Of a DNA stretch of 32,362 nt, positions 1,402-24,045 are shown piece by piece. Every line of letters begins with the position of its first letter. Position 1 is the stretch's first letter. The DNA lies in NCBI GenBank assembly GCA_030680085.1, contig JAUXWU010000186.1, positions 1 to 32,362 on the forward strand, read 5' to 3'. The translations under genes and the position numbers were made by a program. The DNA is from Rhodocyclaceae bacterium. Lineage in GTDB: Bacteria; Pseudomonadota; Gammaproteobacteria; Burkholderiales; Rhodocyclaceae. The notes below the pieces were generated by a model. That model was not told the origin of the DNA. It did not search any database and saw only the letters and a list, made by a program, of their open reading frames with translations.

Positions 1402-3195
<1,794 letters not shown>

Positions 3196-3196
3196 C

Positions 3197-3538
3197 ATGC
3201 TGCGTATCGCCTTCGCCCTGCTGCTGGCCGGTTTTCTGGGGCTGGCGCAGGCGCAGGAAATCTCTCGGGCCGAACTGCCCCGCGAGGCGCACGACACTTT
3301 GCGTCTCATCGCACAGGGCGGGCCGTTTCCGCACAAACGCGACGGCATCGTTTTCCAGAACCGCGAAAAGCTGCTGCCGCGTGCGCCGCACGGCTTTTAT
3401 CGTGAATACACGGTGAGCACGCCCGGCGTGCGGCATCGCGGCGCCCGTCGCATCGTCTGCGGCAGCGCCAGGGTCGAAGCGCCGACCTGCTACTACACCG
3501 CCGACCACTACCAGAGCTTCAGGAAAATCGTCCCATGA
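3197..3538 (+). CDS. Secreted guanyl-specific ribonuclease (barnase / RNase Sa-like)
   Basis: 113 aa from the ATG at 3197, one base after the aspS stop; the track start at 3182 is a TTG inside aspS. A signal peptide (MLRIAFALLLAGFLGLAQA, cleavage likely after AQA) precedes a compact microbial RNase domain. Family hallmarks are GGPFPHKRDGIVFQNRE with the catalytic Glu, YREYTVSTPG, RGARRIVCG with the catalytic Arg, and the C-terminal TADHYQSF with the catalytic His. Enzymes of this family cleave single-stranded RNA after guanosine by transesterification. Two cysteines (in VCGS and TCYY) could form a disulfide in the periplasm or outside the cell. The stop overlaps the start of the barstar gene (ATGA), an enzyme-inhibitor pair. 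Export could serve nutrient RNA degradation or competition; the sequence does not decide. Confidence 0.9.
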   Translation: MLRIAFALLLAGFLGLAQAQEISRAELPREAHDTLRLIAQGGPFPHKRDGIVFQNREKLLPRAPHGFYREYTVSTPGVRHRGARRIVCGSARVEAPTCYYTADHYQSFRKIVP

Positions 3539-3969
3539 ACTATGCAGATATCTTGACCCGCATCGCGCATGCCGGCGTCTATCACATGCCGGGCGATGGC
3601 GAGGCCGGGTTGATCGATGCTGCCGCGCAAAACAATTTTGCGGTGTTTCGCGTCGATCTGGCCGGCGTGAGCGACAAGGCCGCGATGCTGAAAACCATTG
3701 GCGACGCCATGGCGTTTCCCGAATGGTATGGCCGCAACTGGGACGCCCTGCTCGACTGCCTCGCCGATCTCGGCTGGCAGAGCGCCGAGGGTTATGTGGT
3801 GATCCTCCAACACTGCGACGGTATCCATGGCCGTGCCGAGACCGACTTCGTGCAGACCCTGCAGGTCTTCGAAGCCGCCGCCAACGAATGGCGCGAGCAG
3901 GGTATTCCCTTCTGGTGTTTCGTTGACATGCAGGCCGACGGCATCAGTTGGCTTTCCGATATCGCTTGA
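3535..3969 (+). CDS. Barstar-family ribonuclease inhibitor
   Basis: 144 aa, starting at the ATG that overlaps the RNase stop codon by four bases. The core FPEWYGRNWDALLDCLADL matches the central helix of barstar (PF01337), and the domain spans roughly residues 38-135. No signal peptide is present, so the inhibitor would stay in the cytoplasm and neutralise any RNase that fails to be exported. The protein is longer than Bacillus barstar (about 90 aa) because of an N-terminal extension of about 35 residues, common in proteobacterial members. The gene pair is inserted between aspS and nudB in the same direction. Confidence 0.92.
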   Translation: MNYADILTRIAHAGVYHMPGDGEAGLIDAAAQNNFAVFRVDLAGVSDKAAMLKTIGDAMAFPEWYGRNWDALLDCLADLGWQSAEGYVVILQHCDGIHGRAETDFVQTLQVFEAAANEWREQGIPFWCFVDMQADGISWLSDIA

Positions 3970-3973
3970 AATC

Positions 3974-4420
3974 GTGCCCGGCACGAAGCGACCGGTTTCC
4001 GTCCTCGTCGTGATTCACGATCAGGCACTCAAGGTGCTGCTGCTCGAACGCGTGGCGCACCCCGGCTACTGGCAGTCGGTCACTGGGTCGCGGGAAGGCA
4101 GTGAAAGTCTGATCGCCACGGCCGCACGCGAGGTCGCCGAGGAAACCGGCATCGTCATCCGACCGGACGACCTGACCGACTGGCATTTATCCAGCCGCTT
4201 TGAAATCTTCGCGGAGTGGCGCGACCGCTATCCGGCGGGCGTCACGCATAACGTGGAGCACCTCTACAGTCTCTGTGTGCCGCCGGACACTCCTGTCAGA
4301 CGGCATGCCGATGAGCACCGCGCCCAGTGCTGGCTGCCCTGGCCAGACGCCGCCGCCGCCTGTTTTTCGTGGACGAACCGCGACGCTATTTTGATGCTTG
4401 GTCTGGCTGCGCAGCGATAA
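3974..4420 (+). CDS. nudB: Dihydroneopterin triphosphate diphosphatase (Nudix)
   Basis: 148 aa from a GTG at 3974, five bases after the barstar stop; no ATG lies in frame nearby and the protein would begin VPGTKRPVSVLVVI, in line with NudB homologues. A complete Nudix box is present: GSREGSESLIATAAREVAEETGI (G-x5-E-x7-RE-x2-EE-x-G, quoted here as its consensus positions). NudB removes pyrophosphate from dihydroneopterin triphosphate in folate synthesis, and linkage with aspS is frequent in proteobacteria. The 3' end converges with and overlaps the CWC gene on the other strand by 35 bases. Other Nudix substrates cannot be excluded from sequence alone. Confidence 0.88.
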   Translation: MPGTKRPVSVLVVIHDQALKVLLLERVAHPGYWQSVTGSREGSESLIATAAREVAEETGIVIRPDDLTDWHLSSRFEIFAEWRDRYPAGVTHNVEHLYSLCVPPDTPVRRHADEHRAQCWLPWPDAAAACFSWTNRDAILMLGLAAQR

Positions 4421-4607
4421 GCGCCTTCAGGCAGTCCGGGCAGAAACAGCCTGGCACGGCGGGATCGATCGGCAGCGGCGGCAAATCCGCGCACCAGCAT
4501 TTTTCATGGCCGGCCGCCATGCCGCAAACGAAGCGGGCACCGCAGCGCGGGCAAACGCGATCTTCCGCAACGCCGTCCCGCCAGCGCCGACTTTCAGTGG
4601 CTTGCAT
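4386..4607 (-). CDS. Small cysteine-rich CWC-type protein (73 aa)
   Basis: The protein starts with the ATG at 4607 ([12 protein letters not shown]), which lies inside the last codons of the ligase gene, overlapping it by 14 bases, so translation is probably coupled. Its core CPRCGARFVCGM followed by CWCADLPPLP and CFCPDCLKAL has the Cys spacing of the cysteine-rich CWC family, presumably a metal-binding fold; function unknown. The N-terminal residues SRRWRDG are encoded by a copy of the 24-bp dispersed repeat (4571-4594), so the N-terminus may be repeat-derived; an internal start after the repeat is possible. The 3' end overlaps nudB. It is the last gene of the four-gene operon beginning at 9249. 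Confidence 0.75.
   Translation of the reverse strand: MQATESRRWRDGVAEDRVCPRCGARFVCGMAAGHEKCWCADLPPLPIDPAVPGCFCPDCLKALIAAQPDQASK
4571..4594 (-). repeat. 24-bp dispersed repeat, copy a
   Basis: Read on the minus strand it begins AAAGTCGGCGCTGGCG and ends GGACGGCG. It differs at one base from the three identical copies (at 12079, 15792 and 20960). It sits at the overlap between the PaaK-like ligase stop and the start of the CWC gene. Confidence 0.75.
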
Positions 4608-5859
4608 TGATGACGAAGCGGTGTTTGCCCGAGGCCGTGCGGGGAATCTCATCAACATAGTTGAGCGTGAAGTTCATCCGTGGATCGATATCGCTGGCGA
4701 TCTTTTCCCGCAGGCTGGCGACGCTGTCAGCGGGCAGTTTTTCCGCAACCACCAGGTTCAGCGTGAGCTGGTCGGGTGCGCTCTGGATGCACTGGAACTG
4801 CCTGATCCGCGGCAGATGCGCGAGCAGCCGGTTGAAGTAGGACGGATGAATGCATTTGCCGCTCGCCGTGCGGAGGATGTCGTTGTGGCGGCACAGGCCC
4901 ATGGCCATCAAGGGGAACGGCGAGCCGCAGTCGCACGCGCCGTCGAGCAGTCGCCCCGAATCACCGAGGTCGTAGCGGATGAAGGGCATCAGCCGGTTGG
5001 TCAGCGCGGTGACGATCAGTCGTTCGTCATCCAGCGATTCGAGATAGACCATGTCGGTAAATACGTGCATGCGGCCATGGCGGCATTCGCAGGCGATGTT
5101 GGGGACCTCGCGGCAGCCGTACTGGTTGAAGACCTTGCAGCCAAAGGCCTGCTCGATGAGTTCGCGCTGCTCCGCGCCGAGGACTTCCGCGGTCGAATAG
5201 ACGCCGCGCAAGCTCCTGGGCGGTGTTTGCCGGGTGGCCAGACAGAAGCTGGCGAACTCGGCCAGCACCGAGGCGTAGCCCTGCAGCAGGACCGGCCGAT
5301 AGCCACGGATGAACGCCGCCCATGCGTGCATTTGCCGCTCGGTGTATGCAAAGGCGGCGATGGTTTTTTCGGCGGCGATGAAATCGGTCCAACCCGCATT
5401 GAACACGCCGCCGATCTGGGTGTCCTGGCGCGCGCCCCAGAAATTGAGGATTTTCTCGCCCGGCCGCCAGCCCGACATCATGTAGCCGCGACACATGCCG
5501 GCGCGCATCAGCTCATGCTTGGCGTCGTCATACCAGAAGGCCAGCGGCTGGCCGGTCGACCCGCCGGTGTGGCCGAGCTTGACCTGGCCGCGGTGGGCGT
5601 TGTTGGCAAGCAACTCGTCGAGGTGGCCGCGAAGGTCTTCCTTGGTGAGGATCGGCAGGGCGTCGATTGATTTGCCGCCCAGCCGGTCGGCGTAATACGC
5701 CGTGTGCTGTGCGGCATAAGCGATGATGTGCGCCAGGTCTTGCTGCTGCTTGTGCAGTACCTCCAGCCGACTCAGAGACTGGGTATGCAGCAGCGCGTCG
5801 AGCAGGGCAAAGCGACCGGGGCGCAGGCGGCGGTGCAGCCAGTAACGCAGTGCAGACAT
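4594..5859 (-). CDS. PaaK/CapK-type adenylate-forming ligase (phenylacetate-CoA ligase family)
   Basis: 421 aa from the ATG at 5859, whose first base is the last base of the previous stop (TAATG); the track start at 5880 is a GTG inside the upstream gene. Motifs of an active ANL-superfamily enzyme are present: the P-loop GHTGGSTGQPLAF (near residue 115), YSTAEVL, NQYGCREVPN, FIRYDLGDSGRL, and the C-terminal TASGKHRFV carrying the lysine used for adenylation. The family activates a carboxylate as acyl-AMP, usually forming a CoA thioester; CapK-like members act in exopolysaccharide or secondary pathways. A Cys-rich stretch (CECRHG, CDCGS) occurs as in many family members. The absence of any paa genes nearby argues against phenylacetate catabolism. 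Substrate unknown; probably works with the ThDP enzyme and GT-like protein encoded upstream. Confidence 0.88.
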   Translation of the reverse strand: MSALRYWLHRRLRPGRFALLDALLHTQSLSRLEVLHKQQQDLAHIIAYAAQHTAYYADRLGGKSIDALPILTKEDLRGHLDELLANNAHRGQVKLGHTGGSTGQPLAFWYDDAKHELMRAGMCRGYMMSGWRPGEKILNFWGARQDTQIGGVFNAGWTDFIAAEKTIAAFAYTERQMHAWAAFIRGYRPVLLQGYASVLAEFASFCLATRQTPPRSLRGVYSTAEVLGAEQRELIEQAFGCKVFNQYGCREVPNIACECRHGRMHVFTDMVYLESLDDERLIVTALTNRLMPFIRYDLGDSGRLLDGACDCGSPFPLMAMGLCRHNDILRTASGKCIHPSYFNRLLAHLPRIRQFQCIQSAPDQLTLNLVVAEKLPADSVASLREKIASDIDPRMNFTLNYVDEIPRTASGKHRFVINASH

Positions 5860-7601
5860 TATGCCAGCAGCGTTCGCCACGCCGCGCTGTCCGCCGGATA
5901 GCTGACGATCGCTTCAAGCAGGCCGGGACGCCATTGCTCCCAGCTTTCCGCTGAATTGATACGCGCGTAACCGGGTGAGTTTGCGCCGAAGTTGCGGGTC
6001 ATGTTGGCAACAAAACCCTGACAAGCTTCGACGGTCGCAGCCTGCGCGGCATCCCGGTTCCACCAGTGGGCCGGATCGTCCAGCAGCGCCCGCAGGCGGC
6101 CGAGCTTGGCGAGGATGTCGGCGTGCTGCGCGTTGTATTTCTTTTGCATGTCCGTGCGGACCGCTTCCAGGGTGGCGGCAATGACCGCAGTCGAGGGTGC
6201 TTGCAGCGGGAAGCCATCCGCCGCCAGACGCTCAATGGAAAACAACATCACATCGCCATGAAACTGGCGCTCGAATTCATCGTGGAGGTCGATGGCGCCG
6301 ACATTGGCCTCCACGCCGGGACGGAACTCCGCCTGGCCGGTGCTGTGCACCGTGCGCTTGTGCAGCATCGGCAGGTTGGCGGAGACAAAGCGCGCGCCGA
6401 TTTCCGCCTTGACGATGCGTCCCAGCGTCGGGCCGGACATGCGCAGGCGCAACGCGGCAAAGGGGATGAAGTACTGCAGTCCGCTGGGCCGGAACACATA
6501 ATTGCCGGCATACACGGTGCGCGCCGGCTGCACGGCGCCCGGCGCGTCGGAATACACATAATGGGAAACGCGGGTCGGATGTTCGCCGTAGAAAAAGCTC
6601 CCCAACCGGTTCGCGAAGTGCGCGAAGCAATCGGCCTCGGCGTGCGCGCCGGTCAGCGTGCAGCGGTAGCGATAGGCCGCCGCGGCCGCCCGAAAGCCGA
6701 ACAGGTCGGCCATGTCGTGATAGGCCGCCTCGCCTTCCGCGTGGGCGTCGGCCAGATGATGGCGGCAGGCGTCCCCCGGACTGCTTTCCGCCATCTGCTG
6801 CAGGAAGGCGATGACGTCTTCAAGAAAATTGCCGGCCATGACGGCGGGCGAGACGGGCGGGTCGCCCACCACCTTGCCGGTCAGAACGATGGCATTGGTG
6901 CGGGTGAAAATTTCGTCCAGATAATGAAAGAAATTGACGGCACAGACCTCTTTGTCACCCTGGGACGTGGCGACCTTCACCTTGAATTCCTGGTCGCTGT
7001 CGACGGAATAGAACAGTAGCGGCTGGTCCGGTTCGCGTTCGGCCATCTCCTTGAGTTTTAGGTGGGCGATGTTGCGCATGACGGCCTGGCCCTTGTGGCC
7101 GAAATTGCCGTCGGCATCCGGCGCGCATGCGCCGAGAATCCGCGCCAGTTCCGCCGCGGGTTTTGAGCGCAGCAGTTCAAGCTGTTCGTCAGGGCCGAAG
7201 TGGTGGGTGACCAGGCCATGGCGGGTGTAGTAACGCGCCAGTTCGCCGTGCCAGGCAATGCTGCCGGCATTGCGGCTGTCGTCGGCGATCAGCACGGCGA
7301 CCTTCGGGTAAATGCCGTTAGCCATGCCGCCGTAGCCGAAGGCCTGGCATTGTTCGAGCAGGCTGCCGAGGCAGGCCTGCAGATGCTGCGGCCGGTCCGC
7401 CACGGGGATGACGATGATGAACTTGTGGCATGGCGCGCTGCGCAGTTGCTCCAGCCGCCGGAATGCCGCCTGATAGGGCGGCAGCAGTGATTCGTCGAGC
7501 GTGCCGCCCGCCCACAGTTGCGGTTCGATGGCCGCAATGGCGGCGCGCTGTGCAGCGTCGGAGTCAGGGTCAGCGACCCGACAGGTAGCCTGGGAAGACA
7601 T
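5859..7601 (-). CDS. Large GT-A / glycosyltransferase family 2-like protein, function unknown
   Basis: 580 aa from the ATG at 7601 (MSSQATCRVADPD), overlapping the end of the ThDP gene by 32 bases. Near residues 50-260 it has features of a nucleotide-sugar GT-A fold: FIIVIPVADRPQHLQACL, VAVLIADDSRN, FGHKGQAVMRNIA, and YSVDSDQEF, where the D-S-D could be the metal-binding DxD. The C-terminal 300 residues (for example YSDAPGAVQPARTVYAGNY and a YNAQHADILAKLGRLRALL helix) I do not recognise. No signal peptide or membrane segment is seen. The downstream stop TAA overlaps the ligase ATG. Assignment as a glycosyltransferase rests on motifs only; sugar donor and acceptor are unknown, and the protein may not be a transferase at all. 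Confidence 0.7.
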   Translation of the reverse strand: MSSQATCRVADPDSDAAQRAAIAAIEPQLWAGGTLDESLLPPYQAAFRRLEQLRSAPCHKFIIVIPVADRPQHLQACLGSLLEQCQAFGYGGMANGIYPKVAVLIADDSRNAGSIAWHGELARYYTRHGLVTHHFGPDEQLELLRSKPAAELARILGACAPDADGNFGHKGQAVMRNIAHLKLKEMAEREPDQPLLFYSVDSDQEFKVKVATSQGDKEVCAVNFFHYLDEIFTRTNAIVLTGKVVGDPPVSPAVMAGNFLEDVIAFLQQMAESSPGDACRHHLADAHAEGEAAYHDMADLFGFRAAAAAYRYRCTLTGAHAEADCFAHFANRLGSFFYGEHPTRVSHYVYSDAPGAVQPARTVYAGNYVFRPSGLQYFIPFAALRLRMSGPTLGRIVKAEIGARFVSANLPMLHKRTVHSTGQAEFRPGVEANVGAIDLHDEFERQFHGDVMLFSIERLAADGFPLQAPSTAVIAATLEAVRTDMQKKYNAQHADILAKLGRLRALLDDPAHWWNRDAAQAATVEACQGFVANMTRNFGANSPGYARINSAESWEQWRPGLLEAIVSYPADSAAWRTLLA

Positions 7602-9249
7602 GTTTATCCAGCATGATTTCGATGAGGTTGATTGAATCGACGAGATCGGCGCGGGCGAACAAGGCGTCCACGTCGGCCGCGCTCTCGACGCGCCAGTAAT
7701 TGATGCCAAACGCGCGCGCGAGCATTTGATAGTCGGGATTGACGAAGTCGCAGTCGATGAACCGGCCGCCGTAGAGTTGCTGCTGATTCTTGCGGATCAG
7801 CCCCATGCTGGCGTTGTTCAGGACGACCGCATTGATGGGAACGGCGTAATTCACGGCGGTCATGAGTTCCATGCAGCACATCTGGAAGCCGCCATCGCCC
7901 AGGATGGCGAAGGTTGGCCCGCTGTTGGCACTGTTGGCGAGGCGCCCGCCGATGGCGGCCGGAATGGCATGGCCGAGCGAGGAGATGCCCGAATTCGGGA
8001 AATAGCGGTTGCCGGGCGCGATCTTGAGGAAGTGCTGGGCGAAGATGATGTTGTCGTCGAAAATTTGCATGTCTGCCGCAAAGTTTGCGGCGAGCTGGGT
8101 AAAGAAATGCTCGATCAGCGGAAACTGCTGTTCGCCAGCGCCCGCGACCTCTGGCGCATCGTGCCCATCGTACCCATTGCACCAGTCAAGGGTTTTTCTG
8201 GCTGTCCTGTTTTCATCGACATAGGCCAGCAGGTCGTTCAGCACATCGCGGATGTCGGCGTGGATGGCGAGGTTGGCGCGGAACACCTTTTCCAGTTGCG
8301 CGGGGTCGTTGTCAACCTGCGCGACCTGTTTGCCGGCCAGCAGTTTGGCGTCCCACATGTGGCTGGTGCGCTCGTTGAATCCGGCGCCCAGGAAGATCAC
8401 CAGGTCGGCGTGATCGACGATATAGCGGTAAGCCCGGCCGTTCGAGGTGACGCCCAGGCAGCCCAGCGACAGTTCGCTGTCCTCGCCAATGACGCCCTTG
8501 CCCTTGAGGCTGGTGGCGACCGGCAGCCCCAGGCGGTCGCTAAGCTCGGCCACGACCTGCTGGGCGCCGGAGCGGATCGCGCCATAGCCGGCGACGATGA
8601 CTGGATGGCGGGCCGCCGCGATCATCCGCGCCAGTTCGGCTGATTCGGCTGATGCGTCGACAGGCGCGGATGATTTGCCCCGGCGCGCGGGCGAGAAGTT
8701 GATGCCGTCCAGCAGGCTGTCCTCGACCAGCTCTTTCTGGATGTTGTAGGGAAAGCTGAGCAGAACCGGGCCGGAATTTGCCGCCAGCAGGATGCGCGCG
8801 GCCTGGTTCAGCACCTGGGCGAGGTAATCGGTGCGTTCGACGACCCGGTGATAGCGGGTAATCCCCTTGAACAGGGCCGTCTGGTCGATGGCGCCGCCCT
8901 CGCCCGAACTTTCCTGCAGCCCGCCCTTGCCAAAAATGTAGGTCGGCGTTTCTCCGGTGATGATCAGGATCGGCTGCCGATCCGCGTAGGCGCTGGCGAT
9001 GCCGGTAACGAGATTGGTGGCGCCGGGGCCGGCGGTGGTGATGCAGGCGGCGATGCCACCGGAAACGCGGGCATAGCCGCTGGCCATGAAGGCCGCGCCC
9101 TGCTCGTGCTTGACCAGCACGCTCTTGATATTCGAGGCGTAAAGGGCATCGTAGACCGGCAGGATGTGGGCGCCCGGCATGCCGAAAATATGGGCAATCC
9201 CGAGGCGCTCCATGAACCTGACAATCAGTTCACTGACGGCAATCTGCAT
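7570..9249 (-). CDS. Thiamine-diphosphate-dependent enzyme, acetolactate synthase-like
   Basis: 559 aa from the ATG at 9249 preceded by GGAA six bases upstream. Domain order is typical: ThDP pyrimidine-binding domain (residues 1-165, with catalytic Glu in KHEQGAAFMASGYARVSG), a central Rossmann-like domain (about 190-320, HPVIVAGYGAIRSGAQ), and the pyrophosphate-binding domain with GDGGFQMCCMELMTAVNY followed by VVLNN (the GDG...NN metal/ThDP motif). Related to acetolactate synthase large subunits and other alpha-keto acid decarboxylases/ligases. No ilvN-type regulatory subunit or ilvC is adjacent, and the neighbours are a GT-like protein and an acyl-activating ligase, so a role in a specialised pathway is more likely than branched-chain amino acid synthesis. 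First gene of the operon; divergent from argB. Confidence 0.85.
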   Translation of the reverse strand: MQIAVSELIVRFMERLGIAHIFGMPGAHILPVYDALYASNIKSVLVKHEQGAAFMASGYARVSGGIAACITTAGPGATNLVTGIASAYADRQPILIITGETPTYIFGKGGLQESSGEGGAIDQTALFKGITRYHRVVERTDYLAQVLNQAARILLAANSGPVLLSFPYNIQKELVEDSLLDGINFSPARRGKSSAPVDASAESAELARMIAAARHPVIVAGYGAIRSGAQQVVAELSDRLGLPVATSLKGKGVIGEDSELSLGCLGVTSNGRAYRYIVDHADLVIFLGAGFNERTSHMWDAKLLAGKQVAQVDNDPAQLEKVFRANLAIHADIRDVLNDLLAYVDENRTARKTLDWCNGYDGHDAPEVAGAGEQQFPLIEHFFTQLAANFAADMQIFDDNIIFAQHFLKIAPGNRYFPNSGISSLGHAIPAAIGGRLANSANSGPTFAILGDGGFQMCCMELMTAVNYAVPINAVVLNNASMGLIRKNQQQLYGGRFIDCDFVNPDYQMLARAFGINYWRVESAADVDALFARADLVDSINLIEIMLDKHVFPGYLSGR

Positions 9250-16308: not shown

Positions 16309-18441
<2,133 letters not shown>

Positions 18442-21022: not shown

Positions 21023-22426
<1,404 letters not shown>

Positions 22427-22909
22427 TCAGGCGTAGTTGGCGTTGCCCGCGGGCGGCACGCCGTAGACCCAGCGCTTGTCGCCCTTGAGCAGTTCGCCGC
22501 GCCAGTCGCTGTCGTTGAAGGGCGGGTTGGCCAGCACGTAGTCGGCCTTGAGATCGGGGTGGGCGTCGTGGTGGAAGGTGTCGCCGTGGCCGATCTGCGC
22601 GTCGATGCCGCGAATGGCGAGGTTCATCTTGGCCAGCCGCCAGGTGGTGTAGTTGGACTCCTGGCCGTAGATGGAAATGTCGCCCAGCTTGCCGATGGCG
22701 GCCTGCGGGGCGCTGGCCTTCAGGTGCTGCCAGCGCGCTTCCTTGGGAACCCAGAAGATGCTGGCGGCACGGTACTCGTCGGGGTCTTCGGGATCGGCGC
22801 CCTGCGCGCGCTGCGCTTCGAGTTCGGCATGCTTGGCCTCGAAGGCGTCGGAGATGTATTTGAGGAAGATGAGGCCGAGGACGACGTGCTTGTACTCGAC
22901 GGCATACAC
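22427..22909 (-). pseudogene. hsdM: Type I methyltransferase HsdM, N-terminal half (5'-truncated, ends at nonsense TGA)
   Basis: From about 22909 the frame reads [23 protein letters not shown], the start of the conserved HsdM N-terminal helical domain, through the SAM-dependent N6-adenine methylase motif [11 protein letters not shown] to [11 protein letters not shown]. It then meets TGA at 22427-22429, where homologues have Trp (AWVQHFIHH); one base change explains it. The usual first 20 or so residues are missing: upstream of 22909 comes unrelated sequence and, 38 bases further, the mshN stop. No good start codon or ribosome binding site is visible. Together with the following ORF it formed one hsdM gene. 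Confidence 0.88.
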
Positions 22910-22947
22910 GCAGGGAGCCTGCTCGGCCGCACGCGCGGTGAAAACGA

Positions 22948-24045
22948 CTATCTGAGTTTCTGTTCGACCACTGCCGCCATGTCGGCCGGCAGGTTGCCGA
23001 CTTCCCTGGCTTTGGCGTAGGCCTCTTTGGCCTCGCCGCCGCGCCCCGCGGATTCGAGCGTCAGGCCGAGGCCGAACCACCAGCGGCCTTCGTTGGGACG
23101 CAGGGCGAGCGCGGCCTGGAAGCGTTGCGCCGCTTCGGCCGGGCGTTGCTGCTTTTGCAGCAGGTAGGCAAACAGGCCCTGATAATCGGCATTGCCGGTG
23201 GCATGGGCGGCGTGGCGTGTCAGCGTGTCGAGCGCGGCGGCCGTGTCGCCTTGCTCGAACTGCAGGCGGGCGAGAATCGTCGCCAGGCCGCTTTGCGTCG
23301 GATCGGCGGCCAGGCCGCTTTGCGCCACCTGCCGTGCTGCGTCCCATTGGCGACTGCCGACCAGCACCGAGAGCAGGGCCTGCCGCGCCTTGGCGTGGGC
23401 GGGATCGAGTTCGAGCGCACGTTGCAGGGACGGCAGGGCGGCGGCGTTGTCGCCGCGGCGCACCGCTTGCACGCCCTTGCTGTATTCGTTCTCGGCCTGA
23501 TCGTGGGCGCGGCCGTCTTTGGAACGTTTATCGATCTGCGCCTCGGCAGGCGGCGGTGCGCTCGTGACCGTGGCGGGTTTGGGATCAAGCGGCGCGGGTG
23601 CGGGTGCGGGCGCCGGCGGCGGCTTCACGGGTTCCGGTTTTGGCTTGGCGATGGGAGGCGGCGCGGCGGCCGGGGCTGGAACCTGGGCCGGCTCGGATGG
23701 CGTCGGCCAGGTGGTCAGCTTTATCTCGCCCGCATCGGTGGGCAGGCGTAATGCCTCTTCAGCGGCTGGCGTTGCAGAAGTCGGCGCCGTGTCAATGGAG
23801 ACGGCAGCCGCAGGCACGGCGGCAGGTAGAGCGGGGGTGGCTGGCTCGGTCATCATGAAAAGACCGGCAAGCAGGCCGGTCATCACGGCACCGATGGCCA
23901 TACCCGCCGCCAATATCCGCCACTGATTCGACCGAGTGACCGGGAGCGGCGGCAGGATGCGCAACTGCGGCGGCAGCCCGGTGCGTTCCTTTTCGCTGGC
24001 GTGGCGCGCATCCAAATCGCGCAGCATCTGATTGATGACACTCAT
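22948..24045 (-). CDS. mshN: MSHA biogenesis protein MshN (TPR protein)
   Basis: 365 aa from the ATG at 24045; [14 protein letters not shown] is the characteristic MshN beginning. One membrane segment ([24 protein letters not shown], residues about 43-66) anchors it in the inner membrane. A long Pro/Ala/Lys linker (residues about 75-175) follows, then TPR-type repeats (for example [57 protein letters not shown]) to the end, in the periplasm. MshN is an assembly factor for mannose-sensitive haemagglutinin type IV pili. Last surviving gene of the operon: the next gene is a broken hsdM rather than mshE. Confidence 0.93.

Follow-up and report, generated by a model that had tools for sequence, protein, structure and literature searches.

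The DNA analysed here (the window) is a stretch of 32,362 nucleotides from a Rhodocyclaceae bacterium. Four genes, all on the minus strand, overlap one another in it. They encode a ThDP-dependent enzyme of 559 aa (7570-9249; Pfam TPP_enzyme N/M/C), a 580-aa protein predicted by AlphaFold and Foldseek to be a soluble GT-A-fold glycosyltransferase (GT; 5859-7601), a 421-aa adenylate-forming ligase of the PaaK/CapK type (4594-5859; NCBIfam, PDB and motif evidence) and a CWC cysteine-rich protein of 73 aa (4386-4607; PF14375). The first two are the core genes of the system, the ligase is the third gene in its betaproteobacterial branch, and the CWC gene lies outside it. The gene coordinates agree exactly with the overlaps listed in the initial annotation: 32 bases between the ThDP stop and the GT start (7570-7601), 1 base between GT and ligase, and 14 bases between ligase and CWC. 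A ThDP/GT overlap of the identical 32-base length occurs in 31 loci, and this sequence feature suggests that the two genes are translationally coupled. All four genes are under purifying selection relative to near relatives (dN/dS 0.11-0.35); together with the recurring overlap, this argues that the four-gene arrangement is not a product of chance.

The initial annotation had counted the CWC protein as a cluster member, a view that had to be abandoned because its gene occurs in only 4 of 120 stretches compared, all from close relatives, and lies 5-6 kb from the locus in three of them. The CWC gene is thus incidental, overlapping the ligase gene here yet standing outside the conserved unit. In the closest relatives (L018:13051-13796, L019 and L020), the ligase is followed by an ECF sigma factor (TIGR02943) and a small protein that contains cysteine, a place that the CWC gene occupies in the window. 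A GT-ligase gene fusion was also considered and rejected, since the long open frames seen in L010, L011 and L014 only read through the ThDP gene out of phase. A mobile, phage or plasmid origin and a role in defence were rejected as well, no match being found, and comparison of the neighbourhoods revealed no transporter or regulator consistently linked to the locus.

Other features of the window include a barnase-barstar pair at 3182-3969 on the plus strand, composed of a ribonuclease (PF00545) with a signal-like N-terminus and then a barstar (PF01337), with a NUDIX gene following. A Type I HsdM is present in two pieces of 306 and then 467 aa (21023-23347, minus strand), the second of which is continuous, in the same frame, with a YhcG PDDEXK nuclease (DUF1016) domain, and an HsdR-like C-terminal part is found at 16309-17988.

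The ThDP/GT core pair

The first core protein matches the Pfam TPP_enzyme N, M and C domains with E-values of 1e-32 to 1e-38. Its PYR and PP domains, catalytic Glu and GDG-N motif place it in the ThDP superfamily; the catalytic Glu49, together with Asp452 and Asn479 (GDG...N cofactor motif), is invariant in 110 orthologues. The nearest families are acetolactate synthases and the nearest solved relative is BbmA, for which no usable literature was found among the open-access literature searched and whose position in the ThDP tree, on a long branch, is unsure. An identity as IlvB/AHAS, already doubted in the initial annotation, can be rejected. The score against TIGR00118 is 357.8 bits (cut-off 538), and all AHAS equivalog cut-offs are missed widely. 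In the phylogeny, which the annotation had proposed as a check, the orthologues form a single clade (support 100*) on a long branch, apart from AHAS and the paralogues, and the host genome possesses a separate AHAS-like enzyme (28% identity) that is placed elsewhere in the tree.

Searches of Pfam, NCBIfam and the PDB sequences gave no match for the second core protein, and no homology to any solved sequence was found. PF00535 (Glycosyltransferase family 2) does not match the window protein, and one orthologue reaches 13.3 bits against a cut-off of 23.3. In its AlphaFold model (pLDDT 86, pTM 0.88), the leading Foldseek fold matches are GT-A enzymes, with low TM-scores, and Asp108-Ser109 and Asp201/Asp203 of a DxD motif (201-203) are invariant in 118 GT sequences. 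Model, fold matches and conservation together indicate a Rossmann-like GT-A domain with DxD. These results, obtained by the structure prediction suggested with the original GT-like reading, bear that reading out, and the 580-aa protein is predicted to be a GT-A-fold glycosyltransferase of an undescribed family.

A search of GTDB genomes with the GT protein returned 93 relatives, of which 80 were kept; as far as the record titles tell, these belong to Beta- and Gammaproteobacteria. Within the family, most genomes of the same genus matched and no other sampled genus did. An even class-wide sample gave 26 clear GT matches among 370 genomes, and in a phylum sample of 398 genomes the full-length matches were confined to the order of the window. 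The ThDP gene adjoins GT in 94 of 96 first-round loci and in 116 of the 120 stretches overall, which include some places fetched twice. A ThDP orthologue (56-65% identity; next paralogue at most 34%) is present in 25 of the 26 GT-positive genomes of the class sample. In one dsrA- and aprB-positive genome (G184:C34; L189:8028-8413), the GT gene survives as a remnant riddled with stops and no ThDP orthologue is present, so that the two appear to have been lost together. Adjacency, shared presence and this joint loss imply that the two genes very probably depend on each other. The ThDP and GT-A enzymes are a near-obligate pair. The cluster is co-inherited and, as the initial annotation had it, without a recognised pathway: the neighbourhood comparison strongly supports co-occurrence, and the core pair is spread over many Beta- and Gammaproteobacteria rather than being an oddity of the source strain. 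Cultivated carriers include Sulfurisoma sediminicola BSN1 (L022) and Parasulfuritortus cantonensis (L095).

The third partner: ligase or sulfotransferase-like proteins

The ligase matches the AMP-binding Pfam family only below threshold, and its NCBIfam matches to the PaaK and DVU_1553 families remain under the cut-offs (43-97 bits versus 300-646; 43.5 versus 646 for the PaaK equivalog TIGR02155). However, its PDB homologues (9s3l and 4r1l), P-loop, A-motifs and C-terminal lysine place it in the PaaK/CapK branch of the ANL superfamily. The P-loop (GxTGGSTG) and the C-terminal lysine (Lys412), both singled out in the initial annotation, are conserved with YGxRE and RYxxGD in 44 orthologues.

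In betaproteobacterial carriers, the ligase gene follows the core pair (45 stretches in all). In most gammaproteobacterial carriers, it is replaced by ST1 (176-180 aa, 44 stretches) or ST2 (245-260 aa, 10 stretches), the latter mostly on the strand opposite to the core pair. In the GT phylogeny, the third partner has switched about five times. Exclusivity is incomplete, as L154 has both the ligase and ST2, and 22 stretches have none of the three, partly because of contig ends. Among genomes that lack the adjacent ligase, 7 of 9 in the ligase branch encode an orthologue (55-64% identity) at another site, compared with 0 of 20 in the Gammaproteobacteria. ST1 was found in 15 of 26 GT-positive and 4 of 344 GT-negative genomes. 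It has no Pfam match, but its model (pLDDT 89) has the sulfotransferase fold: the top 15 PDB fold matches are all sulfotransferases with a probability of 1.00. With its P-loop GRCGST (5'-PSB), ST1 is therefore modelled as a PAPS-sulfotransferase-like protein. ST2 shows weak sulfotransferase profile matches in one member only. APS-kinase genes lie near the locus in several genomes, and immediately upstream of GT in Venteria. A SAM methyltransferase (PF13578) is encoded near the locus in 26 stretches (e.g., L054:12227-12859), on the opposite strand and beside ST1-type loci; it may perform a further tailoring step. The use of a ligase and two sulfotransferase-like families as alternatives could also mean that the end products differ.

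Association with Dsr/Apr sulfur oxidation

The initial annotation lacked both the sulfotransferase swap in the gamma branch and the confinement of the cluster to organisms with Dsr. The gene dsrA is present in all 43 GT-positive genomes tested, across many families (as fragments only in G294, G014 and G050); the window's own genome has it, and it was found in one of nine aprB-negative genomes without GT. Among the 370 genomes of the class sample, 24 of the 26 carriers have aprB, compared with 94 of the 344 non-carriers (Fisher 4e-11, the genomes not being independent). Counted by family, the numbers are 15 of 16 carrier families versus 42 of about 149, the family count being approximate. When two AprB types are split by profile score, one holds most carriers (23 of 72 genomes, versus 1 of 46 for the other), and we suppose that it corresponds to lineage I in the sense of PMC2211403.

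Gene order provides a further link. In the even sample, the distance from the locus to aprBA is no more than about 11 kb in three unrelated families (expected 0.17, P 7e-4), and a large part of the window's genus has the operon oriented towards a YkgJ-like-aprA-aprB-sat cluster; these links are independent and in opposite orientations. No aprB was found in the window's genome, whereas its four nearest relatives have it; incompleteness of the MAG is a possible reason. The presence of dsrA is not sufficient for the pair, as GT is absent from six other genera of the family in which dsrA is complete. Among the genomes tested, the ThDP/GT pair is restricted to Dsr-type sulfur oxidisers, which suggests a role in that metabolism, although the association could in part reflect shared ancestry and habitat. 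A CxxCxxCC YkgJ-like protein (PF03692) of about 300 aa accompanies aprBA in L027:12215-13162, where the order is sat-aprB-aprA-YkgJ, and in L028, L033, L037, L059, L134, L141 and L142; it could act with APS reductase as a soluble partner.

A candidate pathway and related systems

We give about even chances to the operon being a dedicated pathway by which reverse-Dsr sulfur oxidisers synthesise an undescribed glycosylated small metabolite. In such a pathway, the ThDP enzyme would decarboxylate a 2-oxo acid, the carbanion being joined to an acceptor or released, and the GT-A enzyme would transfer a sugar from a nucleotide sugar. In the betaproteobacterial branch, the ligase would activate a carboxylate as acyl-AMP/CoA for transfer onto the glycoside; in the gamma branch, PAPS-dependent sulfation would fill this tailoring role. 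The product may serve in sulfur oxidation, or protect it, as a carrier, redox or stress metabolite. What the analysis shows are the folds, motifs and co-inheritance of the enzymes, from which the reactions, the substrates of every step and the product are inferred. Against this reading count the want of a consistently linked transporter or regulator, the related dsrA-positive genera that do without the pair, and the alternative third partners with their possibly different end products.

For Dsr oxidation, a small organic persulfide carrier has only been proposed, and the sulfurtransferase unloading it is unknown (PMC3397948); the electron partner of lineage-I APS reductase is also unknown (PMC2211403). 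A bolder and rather doubtful reading is that the operon, by an unprecedented combination of ThDP and GT-A chemistry, makes a new cofactor or carrier specific to reverse-Dsr sulfur oxidation; this could be the organic persulfide carrier just mentioned, or a mediator of electrons or redox equivalents that serves lineage-I APS reductase.

The main rival to a small-molecule pathway, unlikely but of real weight, is a macromolecular acceptor: in sulfur oxidisers, a protein or a glycan of the cell surface would be glycosylated by the GT and then sulfated or acylated by the third partner, while the ThDP enzyme makes an unusual branched or keto sugar. YerE, which makes the branched sugar for yersiniose, is a model for such a ThDP role. 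The large size of the GT, fold matches that include the polymerising or wall-modifying GT-A enzymes TarP, hyaluronan synthase and GlfT2, the tyrosylprotein and heparan sulfotransferases as closest fold matches of ST1, and a UDP-sugar dehydrogenase nearby in 9 stretches are consistent with this. On the other hand, flippase, polymerase, export and sugar-nucleotide genes are not consistently linked to the locus, and a PaaK-type ligase would be unusual for glycans.

It is less probable still that the Dsr/Apr association reflects lineage and habitat only, with a product of general use, such as an osmolyte or a protectant against light or metals, that has nothing to do with sulfur. The pair is patchy within Dsr-positive lineages, the carriers are related and proximity to Apr genes is not universal; but the presence of dsrA in all tested carriers from many families, the persistence of the aprB enrichment at the family level and the independent gene-order links to aprBA speak against it. 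That the ThDP enzyme serves as an AHAS isoenzyme in ordinary acetolactate or branched-chain metabolism, lying beside unrelated genes by accident, is very improbable: its nearest families would suit such a role, but the missed cut-offs, the separate clade on a long branch, the AHAS-like enzyme elsewhere in the genome and the near-obligate pairing with GT all oppose it.

Returning to the dedicated small-metabolite pathway, its parts belong to recognisable superfamilies. The open-access literature searched yielded no description of a ThDP/GT/sulfotransferase cluster in sulfur oxidisers, of this GT family or of its restriction to these lineages. The 580-aa protein represents a new family of predicted glycosyltransferases that almost always comes with a ThDP enzyme, and a conserved gene pair found only alongside Dsr metabolism offers a concrete, deletable target for a dedicated metabolite.

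Each component can be set against a known system. The window's ThDP enzyme shares the three-domain fold, catalytic Glu and GDG...N with AHAS and BbmA-type enzymes (PDB 6lpi, 8x3x), and FGKGxLQES with BbmA; it differs in forming a clade of its own on a long branch under all AHAS cut-offs and, from AHAS, in the absence of a regulatory subunit gene nearby. The GT has a GT-A core with DxD in common with TarP, mannosyl-3-phosphoglycerate synthase and MtdL, at a TM-score of at most about 0.5 and an identity of about 10-13%; unlike these, it is much larger, has its own strictly conserved blocks and has no family model. The ligase shares the P-loop, A-motifs and C-terminal catalytic lysine with the PaaK and DVU_1553-family AMP-dependent ligases, but it scores far under their cut-offs, has no phenylacetate genes nearby and is tied to the ThDP and GT genes. 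The predicted fold and P-loop of ST1, which occurs in relatives and is absent from the window, resemble those of PAPS sulfotransferases (TPST, 3-OST, and the curacin and caprazamycin sulfotransferases), although ST1 has only about 180 aa and no Pfam match. As a whole, the operon recalls the bacillithiol and mycothiol pathways, in which a glycosyltransferase is likewise followed by an ATP-dependent ligase. It does not belong to them: the locus, to which this search was confined, has neither a conserved deacetylase nor a conserved cysteine ligase, the glycosyltransferase of the operon is GT-A rather than GT-B (GT4), and there is an additional ThDP enzyme.
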